DNA from: Aquimarina spinulae
GTDB taxonomy: Bacteria > Bacteroidota > Bacteroidia > Flavobacteriales > Flavobacteriaceae
Assembly: GCF_943373825.1 (NCBI RefSeq)
Contig: NZ_CALSBP010000002.1
Span: 3,709,501 to 3,773,500, forward strand
DNA: 64,000 nucleotides
Direction: 5' to 3'
The position numbers and the translations under genes are program-made. Positions 53,826 to 64,000 of this stretch are shown here, piece after piece. The notes beneath the pieces were generated by a model, which had not been told where the DNA came from, did no database searches, and saw nothing but the letters and a program-made list of their open reading frames with translations. Each line of letters begins with the position of its first letter. Within the stretch, counting starts at the first letter, position 1.

Positions 53826-54308
53826 ATGAAAACCCCTATTTTATCCATTTTCCTTTGCCTGATATTATTATCTGTAGTTTCTTGTAAAAAAGATCCTAAA
53901 ACAGATACCGTAGATCCTGTAGAAATCCCTAGAGGTGATACCTCTAATTTTATCGAAGAAACTGAAAAAGAAAAGAAACCTGTAGTTAAAAAGAAGAAAA
54001 AAACAACTAAAGAAAAAAAGGCTACAAAAGATGATAATACACTACACATACCAGGAATTTTTGATACTACAGATAACTCTTATTCTAAAAAGTATATAAA
54101 AGATTATGAACGCTATGTGGAAAACTATAAGAAAGCTGTAGAAGCAAATGATATGGATTCTTTTCTTAAATTAAGTGATGCAAGTAGTGATCTTAGTAAG
54201 CAATATAACCGTCTCATGAATATACTTCCAGGAGAGGAAATACAAAAACTCAGTGAATATATGCAAGTTAAATCAGAACAACTTGCAGAATTATCTTCTA
54301 AAATGTAA
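53826..54308 (+). CDS. Lysine-rich lipoprotein, function unknown
   Basis: 160 residues: lipoprotein signal (ILSIFLCLILLSVVSC), a linker rich in Lys and Glu (about residues 46-70, with VVKKKKKTTKEKKATK), then a helical domain (YSKKYIKDYERYVENYKKAVEANDMDSFLKLSDASSDLSKQYNRLMNILPGEEIQKL). The Lys-rich linker could cross peptidoglycan or bind it or LPS; that is inference. It lies 90 bases after hisS and before a 392-base spacer. Confidence 0.7.
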   Translation: MKTPILSIFLCLILLSVVSCKKDPKTDTVDPVEIPRGDTSNFIEETEKEKKPVVKKKKKTTKEKKATKDDNTLHIPGIFDTTDNSYSKKYIKDYERYVENYKKAVEANDMDSFLKLSDASSDLSKQYNRLMNILPGEEIQKLSEYMQVKSEQLAELSSKM

Positions 54309-54541
54309 CTTCTTAGATTCAGTGTTTTCAAAAGGGGATAAGTAATCGTCCATTTCTCTTTTGATTCATAATACCAACCTATTTAAAACACCAAAAATGC
54401 TAGGTGTATTGAGTTTTTTTAATTCTTTACACCTGCTTTTGTACTCGGTTTTTATATTCAATTTTAACAATATTGTTTATGTCGTGTGCTTTTAGTTTTA
54501 ATTCCTAAAAAACAACTAATACACTAAATAATGTGCTTTTT

Positions 54542-54559
54542 TTCACTGAATTCAGTGAA
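54542..54559. promoter_or_regulatory. Perfect 18-bp palindrome, possible operator
   Basis: ttcactgaattcagtgaa reads the same on both strands, with T runs on both sides. It has no loop, so a protein-binding operator is more likely than a terminator. It ends just upstream of the expected -33 position of the TATATTTG promoter. Confidence 0.5.
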
Positions 54560-54580
54560 TTTTTTTCTTATTGAGATGTA

Positions 54581-54588
54581 TATATTTG
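54581..54588 (+). promoter_or_regulatory. Putative -7 element of the giant-protein operon
   Basis: TATATTTG, perfect to consensus. No TTG lies at the ideal -33 spacing; a T-rich run takes its place, which would suit an activator- or repressor-controlled promoter. Confidence 0.55.
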
Positions 54589-54700
54589 CACCGAATGTTA
54601 ACTCTTTAAAACTTTTAAATGCCAATATAGATAGCAATACTATAGTGGTTTTAGAGATTTTAAGTATATAATTATTGTATCACCACTTTTTATTATTCTT

Positions 54701-57700
54701 ATGAAAATAAAAGTACTTCTAATCTTATCTTTGATAGTCCCTACAGTACTATATCCTTTTAGTAATGGAAAAGATTCACTTACCGTTAAAACAGATAAAA
54801 GAGAAAAAGTAGTAACAGAAAATACAGCAATTTCTAAGTTTGTTAAATTCCCCGAACTGGATAAAAAATTCCCTCTAAAAAATACGATAGACATCTCCTA
54901 TGCTCCAGAATTTACATTTAGTAATATCAAGAAAGAATATAATGCTCCAGGAGAATTAGTTAATCAAGGGAAAGAAGATGCTAAAGTTGGTTTTGAAGAA
55001 ATAGATAAAGAAGGGAAATGGGTAACATCATTTAGTAATGAAGATATACAAACATTACCTGTTGGAGTAAAATACATAGCAAACGAAGTCGAATACCAGC
55101 TTGGTTTTACTAAAGCCAGATTTAATAAGGAATATACAGAACTCACTGTTTTTGTTAGGGTTATTCTTCCTCAGACAGACGAAAAAGGAGATCCTTTAGA
55201 GATTTTTTTTGGAGCTAATAATGTAAAACTTTCACACCAGGGTGGATTAATGGGTGATGCTAATTTGGTATTACTTGGAGATGTGTTTATACCTTTTAAT
55301 GGTGGTAATTGGCTACTGTCTTTAAAAGGAGGGTTTGATTTTAAAACCGGAGATACCCAAAACAAAACATTTGTAACGATTAATTGCGACGGAGTAAAAG
55401 AAATGAGATTGGATGGAGAAGTTCAATTTTCTCGTAATATGTTACTTCCGGTTGATGAGAAAGGAAAACTTTTAGAAGAAACGAGATCATATACTGGTGC
55501 AGATAATAAAATTAGGCAGATACCGAATAGAGTACACGGAAATTTTAAAGCAGTAGCGTCAAATTGGAATGATCTGATCGTAGAGATCGGAATTACACCA
55601 TTTGTTCTGACCAATCAGAAAGACAAATTTATGTTTTCGCTAAACAAAGCAGTATTTGATTTTAGTGACCTAAGAACAGAAAATGTTACTTTTCCAAATC
55701 ACTATTACGAAAAAGGACTTTTATTACCCAGTGAAGAAGCATGGCGAGGAGTATTTGTTGAGTCACTAGAAGTAGTACTTCCAAAAGAATTTAAAACAAA
55801 GGAAAGTATTTCTAAAAACGAGAGAGTACGTTTTGAAGCTGCTAATTTACTCATTGATAGTTACGGGGTTTCTGGTCAATTTGCTGCAGAAAATATTATC
55901 CCTTTAGAATCAGGAAGAACATCAGAATCTAAGGCATGGGCTTTCTCTGTTGATAAGATTGGTATTGAGCTGGCTTCGAATAGATTAATAGGAGCAGATT
56001 TTAGTGGCCGTATCTTACTCCCTATTTCTGATAAAGGACAAGAACAGAATAGTAATGAGAAAATGGGATTGGGATATAAAGGAATTATATCAGAAGAAGA
56101 ATATGGTCTTGTTGTTTCTACTTTAGATACATTACAATTTGATGTATTTCAGGCCAAAGCAGAATTATTACCTAATTCTGCTGTAGAATTAAAGGTTGAA
56201 GATGGCTCTTTTTTGCCCAAAGCTATTCTTAATGGAAGAATGGCTATTTCTGCAAGCCAAAAAGAATCATTGGCTAATGAAGGAAATAAAATCGATGAAG
56301 ACAATACCGTTCAATTTAAAGGAATCGAATTTCAAAATTTAGTACTTCAGACAACATCACCAATTATAAAAGTAGATTATTTTGGATATAAAGATGAAGT
56401 GAAGCTAAGCAGTTTTCCTGTATCGATAGCTGATATTGCTTTTACTTCAAATGAGTATGAAGCAGGAATTGAATTTGACCTGAAGGTAAATCTGATGGGA
56501 AAAGGGTTTGCTGCCGATGCTCGTTTAGGAATTTTCGGAAAGTTTGAAGAAGAAGAGTATAAGCAACGATGGAAATACGACAGGTTAGACATTTCAGAAA
56601 TTCATCTTGTAGCAGATATGGGGGCTATACAATTAGAAGGCTCTTTACTGTTAATGGATAATGATCCGGTGTATGGAGATGGTTTTTCTGCAGAAATCAC
56701 TGGTACGTTTGGTAGTTTTGGGCCACTGAGCTGTAAAGCGATTTTTGGAAAAAATGAATTTAGATATTGGTATGTTGATGCTGCGATAAAAGGTTTAAAA
56801 ATACAAGCTGGACCGTTTCAAATAAATGGGTTTGCCGGTGGTGCATTCTATAGAATGAGTAGAAGACCTAATGCAGGCCCTGATTTCTCACCTTCTGGGC
56901 TTTCTTATATTCCTGATGAATCTACACGATTGGGGGTAAAAGCAGCTGTTTTTGCAGCAATCGGAGATGAAAGCGCAATTGCAGTAAGTGCCGGTTTTGA
57001 AATAGAGTTTAATAAAAGCGGAGGTGTAAATCGACTTGGGTTTTATGGAGAAGCACAAGCCATGAAAGCATTTAGTTTTGAAAACCCTGTAGCAAAACTT
57101 TCAGAAAAGCTTAGTGGAATGGTAGATAATGAAATGGTAAATGGCATTATGGACACCAAAGCAGGCAAAACATTCATGGATAAAGCAACAGAAGAATATC
57201 CTGAAGAAATTGTAGGAGAAGTAGCAATTAGTGCAAAATTAGCCATGGAACTTGATTTTGTGAACAAGTCATTTCATGCTACACTAGATCTATATGTTAA
57301 TGTAGGTAGTGTTATTGTAGGAAGAGCATCCAGAGGTCGTGCCGGATGGGGGGTTGTACATATATCACCAGATGAATGGTATGTTCATATGGGGACACCA
57401 ACGGATAGATTAGGTCTAAAAATGGGAATAGGTCCTCTTTCTATGGAAACGGGAGGGTATTTTATGACTGGAGATCGAATACCAGGTAGCCCACCACCAC
57501 CACCCGAGGTAGCCCAGATACTTGGAGTAGAAGCAGAAGTTTTAGACTATATGCGAGACGAAAATGCATTGGGAGATGGTAGAGGTTTTGCCTTTGGAAG
57601 TGATTTTAAACTAGATACCGGAGATCTACGATTCCTTATTTTTTATGCACGTTTTCAGGCTGGTTTAGGATTCGATATCATGCTTAAGGATTATGGAGAC

Positions 57701-59440
57701 GCTCGCTGTGTAAATACAGGTGATGAAGTTGGGATTAATGGATGGTATGCTAACGGACAAGCATATGCATATTTGCAAGGAGAACTCGGAATTCGAATCA
57801 AATTATTTTTTATAAAGAAAAAGATTCCGATTATAAAAGGAGGAACAGCAATACTAATGCAAGCCAAAGGTCCAAATCCGTTTTGGATGCGAGGGTATGC
57901 AGGAGGGTATTTTGATTTACTCGGAGGTTTGGTAAAAGGAAGCTATCGATTTAAAATTACATTAGGTAAAGAATGTGAGTTTGAAGATGCCGCACCATTA
58001 GGAGGTATAAAAATGATTACAGATCTTACTCCCAAAGATGGGGATAATGATGTCGATGTTTTTGCAGCTCCACAAGCAACATTTGCAATGAAAGTAAATC
58101 AACCTATTGTAATTCCTGAGGATGATGGCGATAAAACATATAAAGTTATTCTAGAAAGGTTTACCGTTGTAGATGAAACCGAAAAAGAGATTATAGGTGG
58201 ATTAGAGTGGGGGTACATGAATGATAGAGCAACATTTATCTCTGATGATATTTTGCCTCCGGCAACTAAATTAAAAGCTACTGTAGAAGTAAGCTTTCAG
58301 GAAAAAATAGATGGAGTCTTTCAAACTATTTTAGAAGATGGTCAGAAAGTGATTGAGATCGAAGAGAGAAATTTTACAACAGGTACAGCCCCAGACCATA
58401 TTCCTTTACATAATATACAATATTCCTATCCCGTAGTAGATCAACAATTATTCTATTCTGGAGAATATAATACCGGATATATACAATTACAACGAGGACA
58501 AGATTATCTCTTTGATAACACGCAATGGCAAAGTATAGTAAAATATATAGATGATAACGGAAGAATAGAAGAGTCTGCTTTTAACTATAATAATTCTGGA
58601 AATAAGGTAAGCTATACTATACCAAAAACCAGTAAAGAGACTAAGTATTTAATGACTATAGTAAGTACTACCAAATCTTCAAAAGATTCGAACCAAGATG
58701 AAACCACTACAGAGACCAAAGATTTAGGCGAAAATAATACTCTCGAAATTCGAAAAAACAATGCTCAAAATGTCATAAAAGAAGGAGAAATAGAAAGACT
58801 GAGTTATGAATTTAAATCAAGTGAGTATAAAACCTTTGCTGCAAAAGTGAAAGATATAAGTGTTACAGATAATGATTGGGGAAAAATTACTTCTGATGTA
58901 GTATACTTAACGTCTAAGATAAAAAATCATGAAGGTTTTGATATCGTAGAACTTAGAGGAAATAAATATTCAGAAAAGAAATCTTTGGTAGTAGTAGAAT
59001 CGACATTAAAAGATGAGTATTTGATAGAAGATATAGACCCTATATTATATCGATATTATGGAATAAGTAAAAAGTATACGATTAGCAGAGACCCATCGAT
59101 CTTAGGATTTATACCCAAAAGAGCCCTCCCCATTAGTTCAAATTATCTTACTAGCCTAGAACACGGGGTAGATCTAAATTGGAGAGCGATTAATTTCCCA
59201 TATCGATATAATTTACCAGAAGTATATAAAGTTGATTATTTAGATGTAAGAAATAAAGTGATGAATGATTATGTAGATGGAGTTATTCCTGCTAATGATC
59301 CTGCACTACAAATATTGGATAGCGAATATCTATTTATGAGATATGGAAATTATAATGTAAAACTTACCTATAAGCTTCCTGGCGGAATAACAGGAAGTAG
59401 TGCATATTACAAATTTAAAAACCCAATGAAAATACGTTAA
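54701..59440 (+). CDS. Giant exported beta-rich protein with Ig-like domain, function unknown
   Basis: 1579 residues, signal peptide MKIKVLLILSLIVPTVLYPF. Most of the chain is unrecognised and beta-rich, with recurring units of the type 'FxFxxxKxxFDFSDLR' and 'EYDAGIEFDLKVNL' (for example near 290, 575 and 720), suggesting duplicated sandwich or solenoid modules. A five-proline run (GSPPPPPEVAQ) is at about residue 930. An Ig-like domain of the SbsA/Big_5 type spans about 1105-1235 (LTPKDGDNDVDVFAAPQATFAM ... RNFTTGTAPD). The C-terminus has no type IX secretion sorting domain that I recognise. Its stop overlaps the next start by one base, so the genes are coupled. It may be a surface scaffold or adhesin. 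Confidence 0.8.
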   Translation: MKIKVLLILSLIVPTVLYPFSNGKDSLTVKTDKREKVVTENTAISKFVKFPELDKKFPLKNTIDISYAPEFTFSNIKKEYNAPGELVNQGKEDAKVGFEEIDKEGKWVTSFSNEDIQTLPVGVKYIANEVEYQLGFTKARFNKEYTELTVFVRVILPQTDEKGDPLEIFFGANNVKLSHQGGLMGDANLVLLGDVFIPFNGGNWLLSLKGGFDFKTGDTQNKTFVTINCDGVKEMRLDGEVQFSRNMLLPVDEKGKLLEETRSYTGADNKIRQIPNRVHGNFKAVASNWNDLIVEIGITPFVLTNQKDKFMFSLNKAVFDFSDLRTENVTFPNHYYEKGLLLPSEEAWRGVFVESLEVVLPKEFKTKESISKNERVRFEAANLLIDSYGVSGQFAAENIIPLESGRTSESKAWAFSVDKIGIELASNRLIGADFSGRILLPISDKGQEQNSNEKMGLGYKGIISEEEYGLVVSTLDTLQFDVFQAKAELLPNSAVELKVEDGSFLPKAILNGRMAISASQKESLANEGNKIDEDNTVQFKGIEFQNLVLQTTSPIIKVDYFGYKDEVKLSSFPVSIADIAFTSNEYEAGIEFDLKVNLMGKGFAADARLGIFGKFEEEEYKQRWKYDRLDISEIHLVADMGAIQLEGSLLLMDNDPVYGDGFSAEITGTFGSFGPLSCKAIFGKNEFRYWYVDAAIKGLKIQAGPFQINGFAGGAFYRMSRRPNAGPDFSPSGLSYIPDESTRLGVKAAVFAAIGDESAIAVSAGFEIEFNKSGGVNRLGFYGEAQAMKAFSFENPVAKLSEKLSGMVDNEMVNGIMDTKAGKTFMDKATEEYPEEIVGEVAISAKLAMELDFVNKSFHATLDLYVNVGSVIVGRASRGRAGWGVVHISPDEWYVHMGTPTDRLGLKMGIGPLSMETGGYFMTGDRIPGSPPPPPEVAQILGVEAEVLDYMRDENALGDGRGFAFGSDFKLDTGDLRFLIFYARFQAGLGFDIMLKDYGDARCVNTGDEVGINGWYANGQAYAYLQGELGIRIKLFFIKKKIPIIKGGTAILMQAKGPNPFWMRGYAGGYFDLLGGLVKGSYRFKITLGKECEFEDAAPLGGIKMITDLTPKDGDNDVDVFAAPQATFAMKVNQPIVIPEDDGDKTYKVILERFTVVDETEKEIIGGLEWGYMNDRATFISDDILPPATKLKATVEVSFQEKIDGVFQTILEDGQKVIEIEERNFTTGTAPDHIPLHNIQYSYPVVDQQLFYSGEYNTGYIQLQRGQDYLFDNTQWQSIVKYIDDNGRIEESAFNYNNSGNKVSYTIPKTSKETKYLMTIVSTTKSSKDSNQDETTTETKDLGENNTLEIRKNNAQNVIKEGEIERLSYEFKSSEYKTFAAKVKDISVTDNDWGKITSDVVYLTSKIKNHEGFDIVELRGNKYSEKKSLVVVESTLKDEYLIEDIDPILYRYYGISKKYTISRDPSILGFIPKRALPISSNYLTSLEHGVDLNWRAINFPYRYNLPEVYKVDYLDVRNKVMNDYVDGVIPANDPALQILDSEYLFMRYGNYNVKLTYKLPGGITGSSAYYKFKNPMKIR

Positions 59441-61521
59441 TGAAAAGGCTTTTATACATAATAGTATTTTTTGGAATAACTAGTTTGGGTTATAGCCAGG
59501 GAAATGAAGATACTTCTCAAAATGAAGTTCAGATCATTGCCAGGTTTCAAAATAGTAAAGTTCTATTGCGATGGGCACCAACTGCTGCTGGAGTATGGTT
59601 AAAAGGGAATAAATATGGATATCTTTTAGAGAGATTTACAGTCAAAAAACAAGGAAAACTCTTAACACCACCATATGAAAGAGTTGTTTTGCAAGATTCT
59701 ATTCGCCCCAGACCTGTAGAAGAATGGGAAGATATAGTTCATAAAAATGATTACGCAGCTATTATTGCTCAAGCTATATACGGTGAAGGTTTTCAGGTAG
59801 AAGACATGCAGGAGGGAGGAGTAGCTCAGATCATTAATAAATCTGCAGAGATAGAACAGCGATATTCATTTTCGTTATATGCTGCGGATATGAATTTTGA
59901 AGGTGCTCAAATGGCAGCTTTAGGATATGTTGATGAGACAATAACCGCAGGAGAAGAGTATTTATATCGTATAAAAAGTAGAATTCCGAAAACAAAAAAT
60001 AGTAAAGAGATATCAAGCTCGGTTATTGTTAATACAGTACACTCAGAACCTTTACCATCTCCAATAGACCTTATTGCTGTTCCCGATGATAAAAGTATTT
60101 TATTAACCTGGGAATATGAGATGTTTAAGAGTGTTTTTACTTCTTATTTTGTAGAACGCTCAGAAAATGGTTCAGATTTTAATAGGCTTGGAGATATACC
60201 TTTGGTTAACCTTAATGATAAACCTGATCATCCTGCAAAACGAATGTTTTATGTGGATACCATATCACAAAATAATAAAAGATATCACTATCGGGTAATT
60301 GGGATTTCACCATTTGGAGAAGAAAGTCCGGCATCCAAAATTGTTTCGGCTAAAGGAGTTAAAAAATTAGCTGCAACTCCACATATTTTAAGACATGAGT
60401 TTGATGCAGAGGGAAATATAGTTTTAACATGGGATTTTTTAAAAGAAGCTGAACATGAGATTACAAGTTTTGAATTGAATTGGGCAGCTCAGGAAGCTGG
60501 TCCGTATAAAGCGGTACTATCCAACATTAGTCCAAGTGCCCGTAAAACTACATTCAGACAACCAGAACCTTCAAATTATTTTAAGATTACAGCTCATGGT
60601 CAGAATAACCAAAAAAGCACGTCATTAAGTGCATTTGTTCAAACTATAGATAGTATTCCTCCATCAACACCTATTGGATTAGTAGGTACGGTAGATAGTT
60701 TGGGAGTAGTGCAAATAAAGTGGCAGGCAAATACAGAAAAGGACATGTTGGGGTATCGTATATTTAGAGGAAACTTGAAAAATGAAGAAGTAACCCAAAT
60801 AACAATTTCTCCTATAGAAAGCACATCGTTTCAGGATACAGTTCAGGTAAAGTCGCTAAATAAAAAAGTGTATTATCAGGTTGTTGCTGTAGATCAACGT
60901 TTTAATATGTCTGAGTATTCAGAAAAACTTACCCTAAAAAAACCAGATGTTGTCCCTCCATCTTCCCCGGTATTCGAAGAATATAAAGTAATCGATAAAG
61001 GAGTATTTGTAAAATGGATCAATAGTTCTAGTGATGATGTTAGCTATCATCAATTGTATCGCCAAAATACAAAGGAAGCTGATAAAGGATGGCAATTATT
61101 ATTTGAAACAGATACCATAAACTCATATACCGATACAAAGTTAAAATCTAATCAAAAATACCGGTACGCTATTTTCGCTCAAGATGATAGCGGATTAGTA
61201 TCGGCACCTTCTGTACCGATTACTGTTATTGTTAAGAATGTTGATTTAGATAAAGTAATTAAAGGATTTTCGGGAACAGTAGATAGGGTAAGTAAAAAAA
61301 TTAGTTTGTCATGGCGCGTAACTACCAAAGAAGTACAGGAAGTATTGATTTATAAATCAAAAGAGAATGAAACACCAGTATTGTGGAAGCAACTTTTGTC
61401 ATCAAAAACAAATTTGATAGACACTAATATTTCTCCTAACAATACCTATGTATATCACATAAAACCTTTCCTAAAAGCAGGAGGCTATGCTTCTATGGAA
61501 ACAATTAAAATAAAATATTAA
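59440..61521 (+). CDS. Exported protein with five fibronectin type III modules
   Basis: 693 residues, signal peptide LLYIIVFFGITSLGYSQ. Residues 27-200 are a unique N-terminal part (IIARFQNSKVLLRWAPTAAGVWLKGNKYGYLLERF, itself FN3-like). FN3-type modules begin near 202, 306, 402, 500 and 605, each with the usual Trp and Tyr spacing (for example SPIDLIAVPDDKSILLTWEY and TPIGLVGTVDSLGVVQIKW). There is no sorting domain at the C-terminus. It overlaps the giant gene by one base and precedes the SprB-repeat gene by 3 bases, so three products are made together. An extracellular linker or adaptor role is likely. Confidence 0.82.
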   Translation: MKRLLYIIVFFGITSLGYSQGNEDTSQNEVQIIARFQNSKVLLRWAPTAAGVWLKGNKYGYLLERFTVKKQGKLLTPPYERVVLQDSIRPRPVEEWEDIVHKNDYAAIIAQAIYGEGFQVEDMQEGGVAQIINKSAEIEQRYSFSLYAADMNFEGAQMAALGYVDETITAGEEYLYRIKSRIPKTKNSKEISSSVIVNTVHSEPLPSPIDLIAVPDDKSILLTWEYEMFKSVFTSYFVERSENGSDFNRLGDIPLVNLNDKPDHPAKRMFYVDTISQNNKRYHYRVIGISPFGEESPASKIVSAKGVKKLAATPHILRHEFDAEGNIVLTWDFLKEAEHEITSFELNWAAQEAGPYKAVLSNISPSARKTTFRQPEPSNYFKITAHGQNNQKSTSLSAFVQTIDSIPPSTPIGLVGTVDSLGVVQIKWQANTEKDMLGYRIFRGNLKNEEVTQITISPIESTSFQDTVQVKSLNKKVYYQVVAVDQRFNMSEYSEKLTLKKPDVVPPSSPVFEEYKVIDKGVFVKWINSSSDDVSYHQLYRQNTKEADKGWQLLFETDTINSYTDTKLKSNQKYRYAIFAQDDSGLVSAPSVPITVIVKNVDLDKVIKGFSGTVDRVSKKISLSWRVTTKEVQEVLIYKSKENETPVLWKQLLSSKTNLIDTNISPNNTYVYHIKPFLKAGGYASMETIKIKY

Positions 61522-61524
61522 GAG

Positions 61525-64000
61525 ATGAAAAAGATAGCTTATTTATTTTTTATGACCTTTTTCTTATTATTAGGAACCTCGGGTATAGCTCAAAGTTATG
61601 AACTTACAATAGGTGGATATGTAGGAGATGGTAGCCCCGGAACAAGTTGTGGTTCTGGTTCTAAAGGATTACAATATATAGAAGCAACATACCAAAACGG
61701 AACGAAAACAAGAATTTTTGAGCCGGGAGTGTATGAGAATAAACCTCTTGTAATGACTCCGGTTATATTTAATGAGAGTAATAAAATTGTACACCTACGT
61801 TTTCATACCAATAAAAGAAGAAGAAACTCGATAGGTAACTGTAAATCTAAACGAAGAAATGGAGATATAAATATTACAGGGTGTTATTATAGAGATTATA
61901 ATTTTAGCGAGTTTTTACCAACTCCATCTGCTGTACCAGGAAATGCTATCATAAATGTAAGACCAATTATTACATTAAATACTTCTGCAGTTTCTGATAT
62001 TATTGGATATGAAGACTCGTTTGAAGTAACTTCAACTGCCGGATTTAATACCGGAGTTTATAAATGGCAATACCAATTATCCCCTGGAGCTGTTAATCCT
62101 AATGGTTCATGGCAAAATATTCCATTACCCGCAACACCTAATGTATTTAGAGCAATACCGCAGGATTTTTTACCAAAATCAGCAATAGGACAGAATATTT
62201 ATTTTAGGATTTTACCTTGTGTAGATAAACCATCAGAGAATATTATTAGTTTTAGATTACGAAGATCTGCACCTCATATTGTTTCTCCTCCAACAATAAC
62301 AGATGTTAGTTGTTATGATAGTATTGATGGTGAAGTAAGAGTAACTTTTGACAGAGCATTAGAACCAGGAGATAATTTGGGAATAGCTGTAAGCGATATG
62401 TCAAGACCAATAGGAACTGATCCAGATGGTAATACAATTTATGCTGCTGTAGAATCATATTCTAATATTTCGTTTGATGGATCTAACAGCTATACTTTAA
62501 CCGGGCTTCCACCTAGTACTGCCGGTTTTAAATTAGATATGATAGGAGGGTATAACGGATTTGTGTATTACACAGGAGATGCAAGCCATACGGCTGTTGT
62601 AAATATAGGTAAACCTACCCCGGTTTCTTTTGAAGTTACAGAAATCGTAGATGTATGGTGTAATGATGGTGATACAGACATTAATAATAATACCGATGGA
62701 GAAATACATCTAAGTGCAGCAGGAGGTGGTACCGGTAATTATGAATTTGCTATAAAAGAAGCAGGAACGTCCTCTTTTACATGGCTTCCTTTTGCAAATA
62801 CTAGTACTCATGACATAACAGGTTTAAAATCGGTTACTTATGAAGTGCAGGTGCGTAAAAGGGTTAGAGGAGGAAGTGTATATTGTGTTGCTCGAGAACA
62901 AATAAATGTAGCAGGAGAAATAAGACTGGGAGACGATATAGTAGAGTCTGAAATCATAGAAGAACCAGATGAACCATTACAGGTAGAATTATTAGAATAT
63001 AAAGAGCCAACCGCCTACGGTTTTTTAGATGGGTTTTTTAAAGTTCGCATTTTTGGAGGAACCGCCTTAAATGATGATAGCTATACTTTTGAATGGAAAG
63101 ATGATACCGGAAATGTATTAACTACTACCACAACAAGTGTATTACCGGGAAATCAGGGATATCAAGTGATATTACATTCGATAGGCGAAGGAGTCTATAA
63201 TTTAAGTGCAAGAGATGCCAACTATAATGATGCCACTTACAAAGATGGATGTTTCTTTACCAATATTGAATATAATCTGGAACAACCCGAACCACTTGAA
63301 GTAACCATAGAAATATATAATCCTATCTCGTGTAATATTGATAACGAATATAGTGATGGCATCGATTTTAATACCCCTCTGGGAATTCCAGATCAATTTC
63401 AGGATGGAGCATTAGTGGTACATGCAAAGGGAGGCGTGAAATTTGATAATACTATTGCCAATCCCGGGGAATGTAGGGCTAATTTTATGCCGTATTGTTA
63501 TCGTTGGAAAAAGAATGTAGGAGGAGTTTGGCAAAATATTGCTGTGAATGATAGTATTATAGAGAATCAGAGTGTAGGTATGTATGCACTAAATGTAGAA
63601 GATAAAAATGGTATTGTATTAGGGACTTATGAAGCCTATACAGATGTAGATGGTACCCGACAATATAGGTTAGTTCAGGCAATTGATAGCACAAAATATT
63701 TAACACAGCCGGATAAACTAGGAATTTCTTTTACCAATACTGTTGTCACATGTGCTAATGGAGACGATGCAGAGGCAACGACTTTTGTTGTTGGAGGAAC
63801 ACCACCATATACATATGAGTGGAGTAATGGAGAAACTACTCCAACCATAACCAATCTTATAGCAGGAACATATTTGATTTTTGTTACAGACGCTAAAGGC
63901 TGTCAAATAGAAGGAAGTGTAAAAATCGATCAGCCTGGCGGACTTGAAATAAACCCTATATCAGTAATATCTCCAACATGTTTTGAAGGTAATGATGGGC
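61525..64000 (+). CDS. SprB-repeat surface protein, N-terminal part (cut by window edge)
   Basis: The frame from ATG 61525 is open for 825 codons to the right edge, so the gene is incomplete. The signal peptide is IAYLFFMTFFLLLGTSGIAQ. The N-terminal 230 residues are unique. From about 250 on there are SprB-type repeats: clearest at 732-802 (VVTCANGDDAEATTFVVGGTPPYTYEWSNGETTPTITNL), with weaker ones near 253, 370, 592 and 808. SprB repeats are found in large mobile adhesins of gliding flavobacteria, usually exported by the type IX system. Whether this protein has a T9SS tail, RHS repeats or a toxin end lies outside the window. Confidence 0.85.
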   Translation, partial: MKKIAYLFFMTFFLLLGTSGIAQSYELTIGGYVGDGSPGTSCGSGSKGLQYIEATYQNGTKTRIFEPGVYENKPLVMTPVIFNESNKIVHLRFHTNKRRRNSIGNCKSKRRNGDINITGCYYRDYNFSEFLPTPSAVPGNAIINVRPIITLNTSAVSDIIGYEDSFEVTSTAGFNTGVYKWQYQLSPGAVNPNGSWQNIPLPATPNVFRAIPQDFLPKSAIGQNIYFRILPCVDKPSENIISFRLRRSAPHIVSPPTITDVSCYDSIDGEVRVTFDRALEPGDNLGIAVSDMSRPIGTDPDGNTIYAAVESYSNISFDGSNSYTLTGLPPSTAGFKLDMIGGYNGFVYYTGDASHTAVVNIGKPTPVSFEVTEIVDVWCNDGDTDINNNTDGEIHLSAAGGGTGNYEFAIKEAGTSSFTWLPFANTSTHDITGLKSVTYEVQVRKRVRGGSVYCVAREQINVAGEIRLGDDIVESEIIEEPDEPLQVELLEYKEPTAYGFLDGFFKVRIFGGTALNDDSYTFEWKDDTGNVLTTTTTSVLPGNQGYQVILHSIGEGVYNLSARDANYNDATYKDGCFFTNIEYNLEQPEPLEVTIEIYNPISCNIDNEYSDGIDFNTPLGIPDQFQDGALVVHAKGGVKFDNTIANPGECRANFMPYCYRWKKNVGGVWQNIAVNDSIIENQSVGMYALNVEDKNGIVLGTYEAYTDVDGTRQYRLVQAIDSTKYLTQPDKLGISFTNTVVTCANGDDAEATTFVVGGTPPYTYEWSNGETTPTITNLIAGTYLIFVTDAKGCQIEGSVKIDQPGGLEINPISVISPTCFEGNDG

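Follow-up and report, generated by a model that had tools for sequence, protein, structure and literature searches.

A putative TANFOR-type polymorphic-toxin operon of Aquimarina spinulae and the giant-protein gene set that travels with it

We analysed a locus at the end of a 64,000-nucleotide stretch of the Aquimarina spinulae genome (the window; C2:3709501-3773500, genome 6.24 Mb) and see about an even chance that it is a TANFOR-type polymorphic-toxin operon in which the proteins P6, P1 and P2 make up an outer-membrane complex dedicated to displaying or exporting TANFOR-headed proteins. The P6, P1 and P2 genes (the chassis) constitute a well-supported genetic unit. They are found together across Bacteroidota, P1 is usually fused to a TANFOR head in distant lineages, and the toxin-like protein of the operon, P5, has its tail replaced between near-identical strains.

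Operon layout

The initial annotation described three giant genes with a 1-base overlap and a 3-base gap, and the coordinates and the P1/P2 and P2-P3 spacing were all borne out. P4, P5 and P6 continue on the same strand past the window edge, giving a six-gene run. The three genes do belong together as a supposed three-gene operon would, but the unit comprises six genes, and its widely conserved core is P6, P1 and P2. The features are as follows.

54542-54559, + strand: terminator-like hairpin, assigned to the upstream gene (consensus match only)
54581-54588, + strand: single Bacteroidetes-type -7 box TATATTTG (TAnnTTTG; consensus match only)
54701-59440, + strand: P1, 1579 aa, exported giant beta-rich protein, headless form (without TANFOR)
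59440-61521, + strand: P2, 693 aa, exported FN3 protein of the P6/P1/P2 chassis
61525-64000, + strand, open at the window edge: P3, SprB-repeat protein, first 825 of 1136 aa inside the window
L009:7525-10935, + strand: P3, complete gene, 1136 aa, with a T9SS type A tail past the window edge
L009:10960-12321, + strand: P4, 453 aa, PKD lipoprotein with PKD repeats and, by eye, a lipobox
L009:12327-18371, + strand: P5, 2014 aa, TANFOR-headed, polymorphic-toxin-like
L012:1005-3446, + strand: P6, 813 aa, outer-membrane barrel

Past the edge the gaps are at least 24 bases between P3 and P4 (depending on the start codon), 5 between P4 and P5 and 133 between P5 and P6. Of the 392 intergenic bases before P1 (54309-54700), those at 54542-54588 with the hairpin and the -7 box are likely the operon start region, judged from consensus matches that are not above chance over the region (4 terminator-like sites against a shuffle mean of 5.5, i.e. 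no excess). Directly before P1 lies a 160-aa lipoprotein-like gene (53826-54308); genes of similar size precede P1 in several Aquimarina loci, not in copies B-E, and a protein encoded at C2:252994-253404 resembles the 160-aa protein at its start and end.

Domains of P1, P2 and P3

P1 belongs to no family at the Pfam or NCBIfam cut-off and a PDB sequence search gave no match for it. The initial annotation had recognised no family beyond one Ig-like domain; the first part stands, while the Ig-like domain was left unscored by Pfam, though PF13205 is present in two close homologues among the matches listed. A protein of Aquimarina sp. AU58 shares 99% identity with P1, which has 1527 homologues at E <= 0.001 (120 of them listed); among those listed, UniRef labels some 'Cell surface protein SprA' and JGI names two 'TANFOR domain-containing protein'. 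For P2, five FN3 modules had been counted, which is fair from the tryptophan spacing (W224, W331, W428, W526, W625), but by profile Pfam scores a single significant FN3. The claimed lack of a sorting tail in P1 and P2 was confirmed, as neither Pfam nor NCBIfam found Por_Secre_tail in them. P3 carries the sorting domain TIGR04183 (E 4.6e-8, 32.9 bits against a cut-off of 23), which classes it as a T9SS substrate. SprB repeats are abundant in the host genome, with 49 matches at E <= 0.001 across several giant genes, one of them of 4873 codons at about 2.63 Mb of C2. PADLOC returned nothing for P1, P2 or P5.

P5 has a constant head and a replaceable tail

A toxin-type or RHS gene had been expected beyond the edge, and the downstream sequence does contain a toxin-type gene, P5, but it is TANFOR-headed and has no RHS domain; an RHS or Tc-type toxin identity was rejected, there being no RHS/YD match in Pfam or NCBIfam. 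The TANFOR match (TIGR02542, residues 40-170, E 5.8e-7) scores 29.5 bits, below the NCBI cut-off of 67 bits, a value reached in none of 296 genomes. P5 also carries FN3 and, at residue 866, the segment HELGHGVFGLEHPF, a zinc-peptidase-like HExxH of which close copies occur in the TANFOR proteins of host loci D and E and none in B1 or C. Its N-terminus is hydrophobic by eye, and no sorting tail was found by Pfam or NCBIfam.

We compared P5 across four near-identical strains whose P1 proteins are 97-99% identical. Over residues 1-900 the identity per 150-residue block is 80-98%. Farther on, the A. macrocephali match stops at residue 1124 and the AU58 match at 1806, the Aq78 match extends to 2013, and the A. 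atlantica match resumes at 1164-2013 with 57% identity; the tail is replaced in two strains and kept in two. This constant head with a replaceable tail is the polymorphic-toxin pattern. The tail in the window's own copy (copy A) gave DUF4168, under cut-off, as its sole Pfam row and has no Pfam family. No immunity gene directly follows P5 in copy A, where the bases up to P6 hold no ORF of at least 80 aa, and a downstream immunity gene is not universal among TANFOR toxins. Small genes lie beside the TANFOR gene in loci C and D; because their Pfam rows are weak or membrane-type, we do not name them immunity genes.

Five loci in the host genome

P1 paralogues occur at five places (loci A-E), the other four being 42-65% identical to P1, and a second copy begins 476 bases past P6. 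P1, P2, P3, a TANFOR gene and the P6 barrel are present in all five, in the order P1-P2-P3-P4-TANFOR-P6 in A, B and C and P6-TANFOR-P1-P2-P3 in D and E. Copy B also has two TANFOR genes that enclose four large proteins of 2180, 1185, 989 and 1062 aa (L011:4605-20000; L025, C2:3799605-3816073), which share repeats like 'IKEAGGYDAWK' ('GG-x-x-x-WK'-like, by eye) and differ at their ends; Pfam was blank in the three scanned. In the second TANFOR protein of this copy (L025:1215-4406, 1064 aa), a region close to the C-terminus resembles reprolysin-type metallopeptidases (PF13688, E 1.2e-5, slightly under cut-off).

Structure models of P6 and P1

The P6 model is a wide beta-barrel of outer-membrane type with some 25 long strands. 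Structure comparison of the model places it nearest to the Mtr-complex barrel (chain 6r2q_B, which we take to be MtrB), outer-membrane channels and ushers, with Z high toward usher/MtrB barrels and ordinary channels alike. The barrel has no family match in Pfam or NCBIfam; NCBIfam returned for P6 one row in the helical tail (E 0.018, far under cut-off) and the PDB sequence search only a tail-needle row (E 1.6). For a P6 relative (L041), Pfam gave the outer-membrane barrel family PF14905, slightly under cut-off (E 1e-5). The helical tail follows the barrel (model residues 609-798) and is absent from most distant P6 proteins aligned; a DinG-model match (PADLOC, E 5e-5) falls within it and was taken as a coil match. 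OprD/Occ substrate channels and TonB-type receptors also occur among the fold rows of P6, as would suit a system that takes up or senses large nutrients and to which the toxin link is secondary; we regard this as very improbable, inspection of the loci read having revealed no constant neighbour enzyme, plug or regulator.

The P1 model (pTM 0.46) is mostly beta, with membrane-barrel-like strands and not a clearly closed barrel. Its porin matches have a large rmsd, the top VIA row is ApoB and SprA rows stand low in the Foldseek listing. SprA_N was not detected in P1 by Pfam, and P1 was rejected as an SprA paralogue at an hhalign probability of 0.3% against seven SprA sequences, some of them possibly incomplete. 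The fold rows of P1 and P6 both include the S-layer-related barrels SlpA and SDBC. Furthermore, FN3 and SprB repeats are frequent in adhesins. Both points would agree with P6, P1 and P2 being an outer-membrane-anchored structural surface layer or adhesin that merely carries toxins leaving by another way, a reading we find distinctly unlikely and return to below with the distant cassettes. The wider expectation of the initial annotation, a cell-surface system, seems right: the locus looks like a surface or outer-membrane system.

The chassis across the phylum

Among 296 Bacteroidota genomes, P1 was found in 31, P2 in 57, P6 in 90 (of which the weakest rows may be other barrels) and TIGR02542 in 9, below cut-off. 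Since at most two (P1), three (P2) or four (P6) candidates were scored per genome, copy numbers are lower bounds, the host showing two of its five P1 copies. All 31 P1-positive genomes have both P2 and P6: in 29 of them a P2 gene is found on the P1 strand no more than 3 kb away, and in 30 P6 is no more than 15 kb away. Since loci near P1 supplied the seed sequences of the P2 and P6 profiles, the 15 non-seed P1-positive genomes are given apart, with P2 near in 13 and P6 near in 14. Moreover, P6 lies within 16 kb of P2 in 20 of the 26 genomes that have P2 and lack P1. One P1 copy of genome G198 is broken into two frames, of 994 and 596 aa (L051:4631-9484); the other copy (L052) is a single frame.

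SprA_N is present in 228/296 genomes: in all 57 with P2 against 171 of the 239 others (Fisher p 5e-8). This difference fits a link to T9SS, and it also follows clade lines, SprA_N being present in 20/20 same-family genomes without P1. It bears on the alternative that T9SS itself exports TANFOR proteins devoid of a classical tail, leaving P1, P2 and P6 as post-export surface partners or accessories. The T9SS tail of P3 in the same operon and the reported presence of T9SS in >95% of TANFOR genomes (PMC7073777, from its accessible text) speak for such export. On the other hand, the SprA contrast tracks clades, P5 and the two distant TANFOR giants tested lack the T9SS tail, and P6 is a dedicated barrel travelling with TANFOR, so that we hold direct export by T9SS to be unlikely.

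Gene order was read in the named P1 loci, the best 79 of 474 confirmed stretches. The trio proposed as a coupled set keeps the order P1-P2-P3 in 58 of the 79 and lies in one locus in 18 of the other 21, but permuted there. The order P2-TANFOR-P1 on a single strand is seen in fourteen of the 79, those of F. hydatis DSM 2063 and F. johnsoniae CI04 among them; TANFOR lies 7.1-8.9 kb from P2, and P1 lies 10.8-16.8 kb from TANFOR, a shared contig being deduced from the coordinates. L146 and L148 read P2-P3-P4-P6-P1-TANFOR, L147 and L150 have P1-TANFOR and then P2, and the gene order of L121, L131 and L141 (3/79) could not be placed.

The TANFOR head is fused to P1 in most of the distant loci read

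P1 neighbourhoods (L033-L050) were read in 18 of the 22 P1-positive genomes outside the window's family, in stretches of 8-20 kb per locus, beyond which toxin genes would be missed. Among the 17 loci that contain the P1 start (L043 begins within the gene), 14 have the TANFOR head N-terminally on P1 by a profile built from the five host P5 heads alone. In two of the remaining three, L041 and L042, P1 lacks the head and TANFOR is a gene apart in the neighbourhood; in the third, L045, a head was found by the wider profile only. The wide profile was trained on matches in L033-L052, and the independent support for those loci comes from the own-head profile. A second TANFOR gene was not seen in the stretch for 13 of the 15 fused loci, and the usual distant set is P6, TANFOR-P1 and P2, a separate gene for a TANFOR toxin being absent from the stretch read. 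A single gene next to TANFOR-P1 encodes a TANFOR-like head followed by a P6-type barrel in L045 (6010-8709) and L048 (1509-4352).

Sixteen further loci (L055-L070) were reached from P2 or P6 matches. Thirteen hold a TANFOR giant of 1351-4150 aa, and 11 have contiguous P6, giant and P2 (the P6 of L062 was taken from the genome-wide P6 survey); L060, L061, L065, L067 and L069 have no such contiguous set, which counts against the chassis reading, and two of them end at the stretch edge. No TANFOR head was found in host P1 (A-C), P2, P3, P4 or P6, nor in the P1 genes of any of the 79 named loci: in flavobacteria the head is carried by the toxin and not by P1. In a FastTree tree of 35 P1 cores the headless P1 proteins share one side of a branch whose support is 1.0. 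P1 and the distant giants likely have a core in common, as alignment suggests: three single giants matched the P1 profile at 6e-7 to 2e-12, and hhalign gave a probability of 92% over 328 columns against six aligned giants of about 4000 aa, a weak relation, and 13% against a mid-size group of seven. No T9SS tail was present in the six distant giants and P2 proteins tested, two TANFOR giants included.

Distant lineages often have cassettes for which the stretch read contains no separate TANFOR toxin gene, as would suit the structural surface layer or adhesin introduced above; against it, the head common to P1, some P6-type barrels and toxins suggests a specific docking role. P6, TANFOR-P1 and P2 could also be a separate, undescribed outer-membrane machine of Bacteroidota for export or display, often toxin-less, for which TANFOR is the targeting head. 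We propose, tentatively and as something less than probable, that polymorphic toxins arose when the head moved from P1 onto a toxin, and that toxins therefore use the P6/P1/P2 route and bypass T9SS.

Proposed mode of action

For the polymorphic-toxin operon that we favour, the TANFOR-headed protein would reach the periplasm by Sec and be received by the P6/P1/P2 complex; in distant Bacteroidota it would usually be P1 itself, and in flavobacteria the toxin. Because the flavobacterial toxin bears the TANFOR head, we propose that P5 docks on the complex, which would then display it at the outer membrane or let it pass through. The target cell would be held by P3, the SprB-repeat protein of T9SS type, and the HExxH segment may release the P5 tail by cleavage. 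Toxins may have joined the complex by wearing the TANFOR head. Against this reading count the P1 model, which is not clearly closed, the copy-A P5 tail with neither a Pfam family nor a directly following immunity gene, and TIGR02542 scores that stay below cut-off in every genome; the SprA_N distribution suits export by T9SS equally well.

The exit route of TANFOR toxins was left speculative in 2020, leaning to T9SS, as far as the accessible text of PMC7073777 goes, and P6, P1 and P2 are co-conserved candidates for it. In addition, the TANFOR head is distributed more widely than toxins, and a large family of unnamed giants (the P1 homologues) is placed in a defined gene set.

Comparison with known systems

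The sole description of TANFOR proteins that searches of openly licensed PMC papers turned up is that of Jana, Salomon and Bosis (2020; PMC7073777), who identified them as polymorphic toxins. According to the text of that article accessible to us, SprB, Fn3, PKD and Por_Secre_tail domains are enriched near TANFOR genes, many members have no recognised toxin domain, export by T9SS is a speculation, and the tested BaCT toxin comes from F. hydatis DSM 2063. In our data the locus of that strain has a TANFOR frame of 1842 codons, linked to BaCT at the genome level only. P1 and P6 could not have appeared in the published enrichment, in which, by its accessible text, known domains were counted, since both are without a family at cut-off. 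No description of P1, P6 or the cassette was found among openly licensed PMC papers. The system had been put forward as undescribed; its toxin class and several neighbour domains are already published (PMC7073777, accessible text), but the chassis, the TANFOR-P1 form and the toxin-less cassettes appear to be undescribed, as far as searches of openly licensed PMC papers go.

P5 resembles the published TANFOR toxins in its TANFOR head, FN3, replaceable tail and SprB, Fn3, PKD and T9SS-tail neighbours; as differences, neither a known toxin domain nor an immunity gene next to it was found for P5 of copy A, and the TANFOR-P1 fusion and the toxin-less cassettes are not described in the accessible text of PMC7073777. 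The T9SS translocon SprA/Sov is, like P1, a giant beta-rich outer-membrane protein, but it has no profile similarity to P1 and the genuine SprA gene lies elsewhere in the host genome. P6 is similar in shape alone to MtrB, to the chaperone-usher proteins FimD and PapC and to OprD/AlgE, with about 10% identity and other gene partners.
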